From NCBI GenBank assembly GCA_029960955.1, contig JASBVS010000033.1, positions 28,426 through 92,425 on the forward strand: DNA of 64,000 nt, in the 5' to 3' direction. This DNA is from Bacillota bacterium. GTDB taxonomy: Bacteria; Bacillota; Sulfobacillia; JAIMAT01. Position 1 is the stretch's first letter, and each line of letters starts with the position of its first letter. Shown one piece after another: positions 37,835 through 42,165 of this stretch. The notes beneath the pieces were generated by a model. It was given only the letters and a program-made list of their open reading frames with translations, was not told where the DNA came from and did not search any database. The position numbers and the translations under genes are program-made.

Positions 37835-39121
37835 ATGGTAGACGGGGGTGGACGGGCGGTGCAAACGGCGGGAGGAAGCGCGGGCGGAGGGGGCGCGCCG
37901 GCGGTCCGCTCCGAGATCGGGCGCCTGGAGCGGGTGATGGTCCACCGGCCCGGGCAGGAGATCGAGAACCTGACGCCGGAACGGCTGCACGCGCTCCTCT
38001 TCGAGGACATCCCCTACCTGCCCGGCATGCGCCGCGAGCACGACGCCTTCGTCGAGGTGCTCCGCCGGCACGGCGTCGAGGTGCTCTACCTGGAGGAGCA
38101 CCTGGAGCAGGTGCTGGCGGAGGAGGAGGTGCGGCGGCGCTTCATCGCCCACTTCCTGGGGGAGAGCGGCTACCCGCTGGACGACCCCTGGCTGGACGAG
38201 GCGCGTCTCCTGGCGGACCACCTGGCGGCTCTGCCGCCTGCGGAGCTGGTGACGCGCGTCGTCGCCGGCCTCCGCCGGAGCGAGCTGCCCGCGCCCTCGC
38301 GGCGGCGGCTCGCCGACCTGGTCGAGGCGTCCAGCCCCTTCGTGCTCGAGCCGCTGCCCAACCTCTACTTCATGCGCGATCCCGCCGCGGTCGTCGGCCA
38401 CGGCGTGCTCGTCAACCGGATGGCCAGCGAGGCCCGCCGCCGGGAGAGCCTGCTCCTGGAGTACGTGGTCCGCCACCACCCGCTCTTCGCGCAGGGCGAC
38501 CTCCCCCGCTGGTACGAGCGCGACCTCCCCTACCCCATCGAGGGGGGCGACGTCCTCGTCCTCTCGCCGGAGTGCGTGGCCATCGGCATGGGCGAGCGGA
38601 CCGGCGCCCGGGCCGTGGAGCGCGTGGCGGAGAAGCTCTTCGCCGCGGGCGTCGCCCGAAGGGTGCTGGCGGTCGAGCTGCCGCGCCACCGCGCCTTCAT
38701 GCACCTGGACACGGTCCTGACCATGGTGGCGCCGCGGCAGTTCGCCGTCCACCAGGTGGTGGTCGAGCGCGGGCTGCGCGTCTTCACCCTTCTTCCGGGA
38801 GGGGACGGCCGGCCGGAGGTGGCCGGGGTCGAGGGGCTGCGGCGGGCGCTGGAATGGGTGGTGGGCGGCGAGGTCGACCTGATCCCGACCGGCGGGAACG
38901 ACCCCGTCGCCTCCGCCCGCGAGCAGTGGAACGACGGGGCCAACACGCTGGCCCTCGAGCCGGGCCGGATCGTCGCCTACGAGCGGAACGAGGTCTCCAA
39001 CCGGGAACTGGAGCGCCACGGCATCCGGGTGGAGACGATCCCGGGGGGCGAGCTCTCCCGCGGGCGCGGCGGGCCGCGCTGCATGACCATGCCGCTGCGG
39101 CGGGCCGAGCTCCCGGCCTAG
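37835..39121 (+). CDS. arcA: Arginine deiminase
   Basis: LPNLYFMRDPAAVVG, HRAFMHLDTVLTMV, PTGGNDPVASAREQWNDGANTLALEPG, SRGRGGPRCMTMPL (catalytic Cys). Confidence 0.95.
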   Translation: MVDGGGRAVQTAGGSAGGGGAPAVRSEIGRLERVMVHRPGQEIENLTPERLHALLFEDIPYLPGMRREHDAFVEVLRRHGVEVLYLEEHLEQVLAEEEVRRRFIAHFLGESGYPLDDPWLDEARLLADHLAALPPAELVTRVVAGLRRSELPAPSRRRLADLVEASSPFVLEPLPNLYFMRDPAAVVGHGVLVNRMASEARRRESLLLEYVVRHHPLFAQGDLPRWYERDLPYPIEGGDVLVLSPECVAIGMGERTGARAVERVAEKLFAAGVARRVLAVELPRHRAFMHLDTVLTMVAPRQFAVHQVVVERGLRVFTLLPGGDGRPEVAGVEGLRRALEWVVGGEVDLIPTGGNDPVASAREQWNDGANTLALEPGRIVAYERNEVSNRELERHGIRVETIPGGELSRGRGGPRCMTMPLRRAELPA

Positions 39122-39130
39122 GAGGGCGGG

Positions 39131-39160
39131 TTGACAGGTAGATATCTACCTCGCTAGAAT
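39131..39160 (+). promoter_or_regulatory. Promoter (TTGACA - 18 bp - TAGAAT) with a 16-bp perfect palindrome in the spacer; ATG 10 bp after the -10
   Basis: TTGACA 39131-39136, AGGTAGATATCTACCT 39136-39151, TAGAAT 39155-39160, ATG 39170. Confidence 0.75.
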
Positions 39161-39169
39161 CTCGCTACC

Positions 39170-39709
39170 ATGCCGAACCGCTACCGCGCCGGAACCGCCG
39201 CCGTGCTGCTGCGGCTGCCCGCCGACCTGAAGTGCCGCGGCCAGGAGCTCGTCCGCCAGTGGTCGGGCGGCAGCAAGCCGCGGTCGCTCAACCACATGAT
39301 CCAACTCATGTTGGAGAACGCCGTCGAAACGGTTCGGAGGCGGAGGGACGCCGCCACGGCCCTGGAACTGGATCCCCGGGCCCTCCGCCCCACGCAAGGG
39401 GCCGAGGAGACGCTCGCCGGCGGTCTCCTCGACGGGTTGATCGAGGAGATCAAGCGCTCCGGACGGATCGACCCTCTTGAAGTCTTCGAGTGCGACGGTT
39501 CGTACTACATCCTCGACGGGCACAGGCGCGCCGTGGCGGCGGCGGCCTTGGGACGGGTGACGGTGCCCGTCGCAGTCGTCTTCGGGAGCGATGACACGCT
39601 GCCGTGGGGCGAATCGGTCCGCCGCTTCGTCGCCCGTCTCCCGCTGGCCGGCTACCAGGCGGAGATGGAGACCCTTGTCGAAAGGGCGAAGAGGAGGCAC
39701 GGAGGATGA
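39170..39709 (+). CDS. ParB/Srx-like domain protein with N-terminal ribbon-helix-helix-like region
   Basis: AAVLLRLPADLKCRGQELVRQW...SLNHMIQLMLENAVET (RHH-like) then GRIDPLEVFECDGSYYILDGHRRAVAAAALGRVTVPVAVVF (ParB-like). Confidence 0.75.
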   Translation: MPNRYRAGTAAVLLRLPADLKCRGQELVRQWSGGSKPRSLNHMIQLMLENAVETVRRRRDAATALELDPRALRPTQGAEETLAGGLLDGLIEEIKRSGRIDPLEVFECDGSYYILDGHRRAVAAAALGRVTVPVAVVFGSDDTLPWGESVRRFVARLPLAGYQAEMETLVERAKRRHGG

Positions 39710-40299
39710 GCGATCGCGGTCATCTCTATCTCCTGATCGGCCCGAGCGGGAGCGGCAAGACCACGATCATCCGCGAGGTCGTCGCCCGCAGGCCCGACGT
39801 CCGCTTCCTCCCGACCACCACGACGCGCGCGCCGCGCCCCGGAGAACGGAACGGTCGCGAATACTACTTCGTGAACGACGAGGAGTTCGACCAGGCCCTG
39901 GCGCGGGGCGAGTTCCTCGAGTGGAAGCGCATCCACGGCCACCGTTACGGCACATCCCGTTCCCGCCTTGAGGAGGCTGTCCGCTCGGGAACCGCGGGCA
40001 TCCTGTCCGTTGACATCCTCGGTGGCCTGGAGATCAAGCGCGTCTTCGGCGCGGACGCCACCACGATTTTCGTGCGCCCCCACTCCACGCAGGAGCTGCT
40101 GGAGCGCTTGGTCGGGCGCGGCGACGACCAGGACGACATCGAGGGACGGCTGCGGCGTGCCGAGGAAGAGATGCGCATGGCCAGCCTTTGCGACTACGTG
40201 GTCATCAACGACAACGGGCACTTGCAGGACGCCGTCGAGGCCGTGCTCCGCATCATCGACCGTACGTCCGTCCGAAACCCGGAGGACGCGCACACCTGA
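39706..40299 (+). CDS. Guanylate kinase-like P-loop kinase
   Basis: LIGPSGSGKTTIIREV, TTTTRAPRPGERNGREYYFVNDEEFDQALARGEFLEWKRIHGHRYGTSRS; ATGA overlap with upstream gene. Confidence 0.87.
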   Translation: MSDRGHLYLLIGPSGSGKTTIIREVVARRPDVRFLPTTTTRAPRPGERNGREYYFVNDEEFDQALARGEFLEWKRIHGHRYGTSRSRLEEAVRSGTAGILSVDILGGLEIKRVFGADATTIFVRPHSTQELLERLVGRGDDQDDIEGRLRRAEEEMRMASLCDYVVINDNGHLQDAVEAVLRIIDRTSVRNPEDAHT

Positions 40300-40347
40300 G
40301 GCCGTCCCCTTCCTCGCGCCCCCCGATGTCCATCGGCCGCTGCAGAC

Positions 40348-41271
40348 TCACGGGTGGCCGGCCAGTCGCAAGGTCAGAGACGGCGGCGGTTGATCGGTGT
40401 GGTGCTGGACCAAGCCGGCGTAATACCGCGTGCCGGCCGTCGTCCGGATCTCGATCCGCGCGCCGCCTTTCTCCTGGGTCACGACGAGGCCCGACCAGAA
40501 CTCTTCCCGCTGCGGCTTCAGCTCTTGAGGGACTCCGCTTGCAACCGTCACGTTGTCGAAGTACACGGTGAGGACCCTGCTCGCACGGTCATAGCTGACG
40601 TGCACCATAGGAATGTCCGTGGTGGCGGCGTAATACAGGTCTTCCTTGCCCTTGATGGGGCCGAACGTAAACTGGATCTCTGCCGGGCCGTAGGATATCC
40701 GTGTGAGGGCCTCTATTTTCCAATGGCCGAACTTTATCGCCGTGCTGACAGGAAGGAAGATCGGCGTCTCGGTTGCAACCCATTCGCCGTTCTGCCATGC
40801 GACCTCCAGGGTGAACGGAGGTACGGTCGAACCGTCGGCGTCATTCCCACCATTTGCCCGAAAGTAAATGTGATCGCGGTCGGCCATGCGCTCGAGGGTG
40901 ACGAAGTACGAGTCGGTCGGCAGCATGACCCGTTCGCCAGTCTTCAGGTCGTACCACCAGAATCTGGGCGCAAGGCTCGGACTCTCGGGCACGGCGGCCT
41001 CGACGACCGCGGCGTCGCGCGCCCGATCCACGGTCAGCGAGACGATCCTGCCTTGGTCGAAGTGGCTTCGGATGTAGTCGACGCTGATCGGCCCGGGAGA
41101 CGCCCCTTGCTCACCCGGAGCTCCACCCGTGGCCGTCGCGCCGGACCCGTTGGATGCTCCCGGGCCATTGGTCGCGGAACGGTCGGGCGCCGCGCCCGAG
41201 CACGCCGCCAGCGCCACCGCCAGGAACGCCACCGCCAAACCCGTGAGGCCGCGCTGCCGCGTGCGGAACAT
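40348..41271 (-). CDS. Predicted lipoprotein of unknown function
   Basis: MFRTRQRGLTGLAVAFLAVALAACSG: signal peptide with lipobox; Gly/Ser/Ala-rich linker; remaining sequence not assigned. Confidence 0.75.
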   Translation of the reverse strand: MFRTRQRGLTGLAVAFLAVALAACSGAAPDRSATNGPGASNGSGATATGGAPGEQGASPGPISVDYIRSHFDQGRIVSLTVDRARDAAVVEAAVPESPSLAPRFWWYDLKTGERVMLPTDSYFVTLERMADRDHIYFRANGGNDADGSTVPPFTLEVAWQNGEWVATETPIFLPVSTAIKFGHWKIEALTRISYGPAEIQFTFGPIKGKEDLYYAATTDIPMVHVSYDRASRVLTVYFDNVTVASGVPQELKPQREEFWSGLVVTQEKGGARIEIRTTAGTRYYAGLVQHHTDQPPPSLTLRLAGHP

Positions 41272-41439
41272 CGCCGCCTCCTCCCTTCCGAGACGACCGA
41301 CAGCGCCCCTCGGGGGAGCCGGCGGCCATCGCTTTTCGAGCATGACTGCGTCCAGCTCCCCCCCGTTCCCCGTAGCCTCGCAGGAACCGCGGACATGGGC
41401 CGGACGGCAACGACTCACGGCGACCACGGCTTCCTGCCG

Positions 41440-42165
41440 TCAGCCGGTTGCCTTCTGGTGCGCGGCGTCGGCGGTGGAGTGGGCGGCGGCGCTGGCCAGG
41501 TTGATGACCACGAAGCCGACGTAGAGGACGACGAAGCCGAGCGACATCAACGGCCAGAACCAGAACGGCTGGCCGAGCCGCGCCAGCGAGCCGGCCGCGC
41601 CCAGGAGGATGGTGCCCGCGGCGATCAGCGCGTTCCCTTCCGTGAAGGCGCTGCTGGCCTGCCTGCGGTAGAGCTGCCAGGCCGAGAGGAGCGCGAGTCC
41701 GGCCACCGCCACCAGGCCGAAGGTGTTGAGGAGGATGAGGAGGATCAGGGCGGGCGGATTCTGCGTCAAGCCGAGGACCTCGGTGCCCGGTCCGCCGTCG
41801 AGGCGCGCCACCGCGGCCGCGTCGCCCGGCGTGAGGAAGAGCTCGACCGCCCCCACCAGGGAGAGGAGGAGCACCACGCCGAGGATCGGGCGCGCCCAGC
41901 GCCCGCCGCGGTCGTGGAGAAAGACGCTGCCCAGGCCCAGGTAGGCCGCCATCAGCATGGCGCCGAAGAGGTAGTAGACGCGGAACCAGGCCAGACTTCC
42001 CGTCTCCAGCGCCAGGACGTAGCCCGCCGCCCCCAGGAAGCCCATGGCGAGCGAGACCGTCCAGATCAGCTGGTAGGGCCGTCGCCGCTCGAGGTACTGC
42101 CGCAGCGTTCCGTAGCCGAAGGCCGCGCAGACCAGCGCCACGATGAGCGGGTAGACGAGGAGCAC
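41440..42165 (-). CDS. Multi-TM membrane protein of unknown function (about 7 TM)
   Basis: Hydrophobic profile; adjacent to cupredoxin-like lipoprotein gene. Confidence 0.72.
   Translation of the reverse strand: MLLVYPLIVALVCAAFGYGTLRQYLERRRPYQLIWTVSLAMGFLGAAGYVLALETGSLAWFRVYYLFGAMLMAAYLGLGSVFLHDRGGRWARPILGVVLLLSLVGAVELFLTPGDAAAVARLDGGPGTEVLGLTQNPPALILLILLNTFGLVAVAGLALLSAWQLYRRQASSAFTEGNALIAAGTILLGAAGSLARLGQPFWFWPLMSLGFVVLYVGFVVINLASAAAHSTADAAHQKATG

Follow-up and report, generated by a model that had tools for sequence, protein, structure and literature searches.

The 64,000-nucleotide stretch of a Bacillota bacterium analysed here (the window) carries an operon in which a protein with a predicted ParB fold is coupled to a second guanylate kinase (GMK). 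The two genes look like a control module not described before, and not like a toxin-antitoxin (TA) pair. In the reading that we favour, to which we give an even chance, the operon is autoregulated: a ParB-fold, probably nucleotide-binding, repressor would set the expression of a second, horizontally acquired guanylate kinase.

Recent work has shown that ParB-fold proteins bind CTP, ATP or GTP and that they have spread far beyond chromosome segregation, yet for most of them neither partner nor role is known. With a regulator of this fold paired with a guanylate kinase, the operon offers a small, concrete and testable case, in which the switch would act back on the nucleotide pool. Searches of a literature library returned no paper describing a guanylate kinase and a ParB protein in one operon, and none joining guanylate kinase, toxin-antitoxin and ribbon-helix-helix.

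Operon architecture and genomic setting

The operon consisted of two genes on the forward strand. The first (39170-39709) encoded the presumed regulator, a protein of 179 aa with a ParB/Srx/SerK-fold domain at approximately residues 66-140. The second (39706-40299) encoded the kinase, recognised from its open reading frame (ORF) and profile matches, with 197 aa counted from the ATG within the overlap. As the original prediction had described, the TGA of the ParB-like gene and the ATG of the kinase gene shared the letters ATGA, the junction reading GGATGAGC. The operon's own promoter and palindrome, also claimed, were both recovered. A consensus scan against shuffles located a σ70-type promoter, TTGACA - 18 bp - TAGAAT, at 39131-39160 on the forward strand, which matched 11 of the 12 consensus positions (expectation from shuffles, 0.0 ± 0.2). 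The transcript start was predicted ~ 3 nt 5′ of the ATG, which would make the mRNA nearly leaderless. The promoter spacer was filled by a perfect 16-bp palindrome, AGGTAGATATCTACCT (39136-39151), the presumed operator. It was the sole AT-rich one among the five perfect 16-mer palindromes of the 64-kb window, the other four being G+C-rich, and no second copy occurred in its own genome at ≤ 2 mismatches. Its location inside the promoter and its uniqueness in the genome point to self-regulation, not to a regulon.

The pair was located within a stretch (39113-41494) that, by locus comparison, was absent from both congeners searched (G001, locus L143; G002, locus L144). In these, the arginine deiminase gene was followed directly by the gene found at 41440-42165 in the window, and the 2.4 kb between them were missing. 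Third-position G+C was lower in the genes of the stretch (0.79-0.88) than in the two flanking genes (≈ 0.96). The simplest reading is a gain of the 2.4 kb in the window species, loss in both congeners being possible; the second guanylate kinase and its regulator were probably acquired horizontally. No mobility gene was found in the 2.4-kb stretch. It also contained, on the reverse strand and convergent to the pair, a lipoprotein-like ORF (40348-41427) that matched no Pfam family in the profile search. Among 154 genomes of the class, this gene had only two distant relatives (in G035 and G083).

The window kinase and the guanylate kinase clades

The kinase scored 111 bits against Pfam Guanylate_kin (PF00625, cut-off 25) and 176.1 bits against the NCBIfam guanylate kinase equivalog TIGR03263 (cut-off 160.45), and the two clade sisters tested also exceeded the latter cut-off. 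In an alignment of 18 GMKs from three clades, all residues invariant across the clades were present in the window kinase. It kept the P-loop (GxSGSGKT), the RxPRPGE loop, E72 (the Glu of FLEW) and Y81-G-T (the YGT motif), all four of which had been read from the ORF earlier, as well as D103, R134, R138, R148 and N168. These are active-site residues of the family.

The original prediction had considered the gene unlikely to be the housekeeping gmk and had pointed to the vicinity of rpoZ as the place to look for another. Such a gene was found: the same genome carried a further Guanylate_kin gene between a RemA-like gene (remA) and rpoZ. That copy sits at the usual place and is the housekeeping gmk; the window gene is thus an extra copy. 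The window kinase shared ≈ 39% identity with the housekeeping copy, and as much as 58-62% with genes from other families within the class.

In the maximum-likelihood tree, the GMKs fell into three groups: those of family f7 (A), the window gene with those of families f37, f38, f42, f44 and f45 (B), and the canonical ones (C). Approximately unbiased (AU) tests rejected the placement of the window gene with A (p = 0.016) and with C (p = 0.005), values that serve as a guide, since the test presupposes groups named beforehand and these were named after the tree had been seen. In 11 genomes of the five named families, several of them 96-99% complete, no Guanylate_kin gene other than a clade B one was found, so the window type is evidently able to serve as the guanylate kinase of a cell. 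For that reason, the window protein is most likely a working GMP kinase and not a toxin. One clade B gene (L055, 7460-8101) lay next to what reads as a cytochrome oxidase gene cluster, away from a remA-gmk-rpoZ locus. As it was also the sole GMK found, this suggests that the clade B gene replaced the canonical gmk in these families.

In clade A, the two f7 kinases tested scored 142 and 131 bits, below the TIGR03263 cut-off, and the conserved Asp, present in the window kinase as D103, was missing from the aligned f7 kinases. In consequence, their substrate may differ. A clade A gene was the sole Guanylate_kin gene found in five genomes (G122, G127, G132, G134 and G129; loci L076, L078, L079, L080 and L083). 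The G122 kinase, which was scored, fell under the equivalog cut-off, and the aligned kinases of such f7 genomes were among those without the Asp.

A viral search with GMKs of both clades returned only two distant relatives. Two of the plasmid matches of the window kinase (39-40% identity) were inspected and proved to be ordinary gmk genes beside yicC and rpoZ or nadD. We must also note that a Pseudomonas aeruginosa record labelled as plasmid p1B17416 (NZ_CP070468.1, 55439-61975; L174) carries rph-yicC-gmk-rpoZ-spoT, core chromosomal genes, and may be a mislabelled chromosome piece.

The ParB-like protein and its recurrence beside guanylate kinases

The ParB/Srx-like domain claimed for the first protein held at the level of the predicted fold, but not by the Pfam sequence score. 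ParB_N matched below its cut-off (22.1 bits against 26.3, E = 1.6e-4), and TIGR00180 matched with E = 3e-7. The predicted domain, modelled with a pLDDT of ≈ 75-91, gave Foldseek probabilities of 1.00 to sulfiredoxin, ParB with CDP, Noc, KorB, SbnI and SerK (PDB targets 6ky4, 6sdk, 7bnr, 8qa9 and 5x0b); the best match was sulfiredoxin, with a TM score of 0.74 (target length). Since the ParB_N score lies under the gathering cut-off, predicted membership of the ParB-CTPase/Srx superfamily is claimed at fold level only. PTQ and [DE]GHxR were invariant in an alignment of the window protein, its relative from genome G124 (see below) and seven Thermococcus proteins. The GxxR of the window protein lies in DGHRR, and the G..R was invariant over the nine relatives. 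GxxR is the phosphate-binding P-motif of the ParB fold, the nucleotide specificity of which is not readable from sequence (PMC12704722). No HTH and no C-terminal dimer domain were matched in the 179-aa protein and no parA was recognised nearby, which sets it apart from the ParB of a ParABS system. The same genome contained a separate ParB-like match within an open frame of 324 aa (G000:C52).

The N-terminus had been described as ribbon-helix-helix (RHH)-like, a claim that we do not maintain. The N-terminal 62 residues resemble RHH by eye, but three tests lent no support. There was no Pfam, NCBIfam or meaningful PDB match; a locally built RHH_1 profile gave 0.8 bits, with 258 of ~ 1800 shuffles scoring higher; and AlphaFold predicted only two low-confidence helices (residues 18-31 and 40-61).

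When the first protein alone was searched against the 154 class genomes, five matches besides itself fell below 1e-5. One of them, in G124, was located directly upstream of one of the two guanylate kinase genes of that genome and overlapped it. The G124 order was MazE/AbrB-like, 106-aa ParB-like and GMK-like, each gene joined to the next by ATGA, and the first exceeded the Pfam MazE_antitoxin cut-off (29.9 against 24.7). The same gene order was observed in G137, with one stop in the ParB-like gene on a metagenome-assembled contig of ≈ 3.7-fold coverage, and in G122, where an internal deletion in the ParB-like gene removes the DGHxR motif. In all three, an imperfect inverted repeat lay at or near a -10-like box. 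The pair thus co-occurs in other genomes, as the neighbourhood check proposed earlier had sought; it is known from four genomes including that of the window, at least some of them metagenome-assembled, and the ParB-like gene is damaged in two. No ParB-like gene stood upstream of any other GMK locus examined. The G124-type kinases belong to a different GMK clade from that of the window kinase, according to the AU rejection of group A given above. One type of ParB-like protein thus goes with kinases of two GMK clades, and its own partner differs too, being either a segment fused to its N-terminus or a DNA-binding protein encoded separately. A partnership that reappears in distant relatives with other components looks like a real control module.

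Searches of plasmids, phages, viral contigs and genome contigs with the first protein yielded no close relative; two viral matches, ParB-like with methyltransferase-like C-termini, were rejected as unrelated. An alignment-based genome scan returned the G137 locus and distant ParB/SerK-type proteins without GMK neighbours, and a ParB-like search of 399 genomes of the phylum gave almost only long, Spo0J-sized proteins. In the class-wide profile search, the three strong matches were rows of the profile itself and thus provide no independent support. For the ParB-like protein of G124, the predicted structure (pLDDT 45) was too poor for use. Another ParB-like/nucleoside-monophosphate-kinase neighbourhood was seen in a Chloroflexi metagenome-assembled genome (L126, 3379-4850), where the gene immediately after that of a DGHHR-containing protein with a weak DUF4032 match encoded an adenylate kinase (ADK, 137 bits).

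Proposed mechanism, alternatives and known systems

In the autoregulated operon that we propose, the first protein would be a DNA-binding protein with a ParB/Srx-fold domain, which would bind the palindrome in the promoter spacer and repress its own operon. The ParB-fold domain may bind a nucleotide, be it CTP, ATP or GTP, or a related signal. Such binding would alter DNA binding and match the guanylate kinase supply to the nucleotide state, and translational coupling through ATGA would keep the two proteins in ratio. We infer that GMP is the kinase substrate and that the cell benefits. The original prediction had named a nucleotide-sensing switch as its other option, and this is the reading favoured here. 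Both halves have precedents. In the literature, DndB figures as a ParB-fold repressor that depends on ATP, and from protein to protein the fold accommodates CTP, ATP or GTP (PMC12704722). In B. subtilis, though not in E. coli, (p)ppGpp controls GTP levels through guanylate kinase (PMC6783271); an accessory enzyme of different sensitivity could therefore matter.

We propose more tentatively, and lean somewhat against, a wider reading. Here, a ParB-fold NTP-binding protein with interchangeable antitoxin-type DNA-binding proteins would form a modular switch, joined more than once to GMKs of different clades. The ParB-fold module would sense nucleotide levels and control the GMP-to-GDP flux. If so, it would be, to our knowledge, the first ParB-fold switch governing nucleotide metabolism itself.

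The best-surviving alternative, which we nevertheless judge unlikely, is that the kinase itself is the target of the ParB-fold protein, a nucleotide-responsive partner adjusting its activity, instead of or besides transcription. It would suit G124, where the ParB-like protein is a separate single-domain protein of 106 aa, unfused to the DNA-binding protein, and where its gene adjoins the kinase gene and is translationally coupled to it. The window ParB-like domain, however, is fused to the extra N-terminal segment, with no other DNA-binding gene to serve the palindrome, and no structural sign of contact was seen.

The TA-like module of the original prediction, with an autoregulated antitoxin as first protein and a GMK-like toxin that depletes or modifies nucleotides, now appears very improbable. 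The gene order, the ATGA overlap and the palindromic promoter would fit, as would the antitoxin-type MazE/AbrB protein of G124. Nevertheless, the window kinase keeps all guanylate kinase active-site residues, and its clade sisters are the sole GMK of 11 genomes. Moreover, f7 kinases are intact both at loci with a broken ParB-like gene (G122, G137) and at loci lacking one (G135, G121, G127, G132, G134 and G129; loci L075, L077-L080 and L083), and PADLOC gave nothing above weak P-loop similarity. With that result, and with no defence genes recognised nearby, a defence role was also set aside. What resembles a TA module in layout can turn out to be an ordinary metabolic enzyme with a control system of its own.

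We find it equally hard to credit a metabolic pair of a small SerK-like kinase (the ParB-like domain) and a GMK-like enzyme that has turned to another substrate. The domain does resemble the free serine kinase SerK/SbnI and short Thermococcus relatives that share PTQ and DGHHR, and f7 kinases fall under the guanylate kinase cut-off; but the window kinase lies over it, its sisters are sole GMKs, and no serine or cysteine genes were recognised near the window pair. Chance neighbourhood, a stray ParB-like gene functionally unlinked to a transferred gmk, would accord with the pair's presence in only four genomes, its absence from two congeners and the lack of further close ParB-like relatives in the 154 genomes of the class, the 399 of the phylum, plasmids and phages, yet it is scarcely probable, as the pairing turns up again with a kinase of another GMK clade, ATGA overlap included, and the odds that one of five matches lies directly upstream of a GMK gene are ~ 1 in 600 (our own rough estimate for one event, at ~ 3000 genes per genome).

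Four kinds of known system come closest. Like Gmk (TIGR03263/PF00625), the window kinase exceeds the equivalog cut-off and has the full active site, and other lineages rely on its sisters as sole Gmk; unlike it, the kinase is an extra copy beside a canonical gmk, has its own promoter and regulator, and belongs to a clade apart (AU p = 0.005, again as a guide). With the ParB-CTPase-fold regulators (DndB, an ATP-dependent repressor, and KorB, VirB and Noc), the first protein shares the predicted fold, the GxxR and a promoter palindrome. It has 179 aa, however, without the HTH and the C-terminal dimer domain of ParB and KorB, and its partner is a nucleotide kinase. SerK, SbnI and sulfiredoxin have a similarly small ParB/Srx-fold domain, and the PTQ...DGHxR region aligns with the short Thermococcus relatives, whereas the window locus has no matching pathway nearby and has an N-terminal extension and a promoter palindrome, which suggest regulation and not metabolism. 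Finally, type II TA systems (MazE/AbrB- or RHH-type antitoxins, zeta-type kinases) share the layout and, in G124, the MazE/AbrB-type protein, but the window kinase has the look of an ordinary housekeeping-type enzyme, and kinases related to it are retained in the absence of the partner genes.
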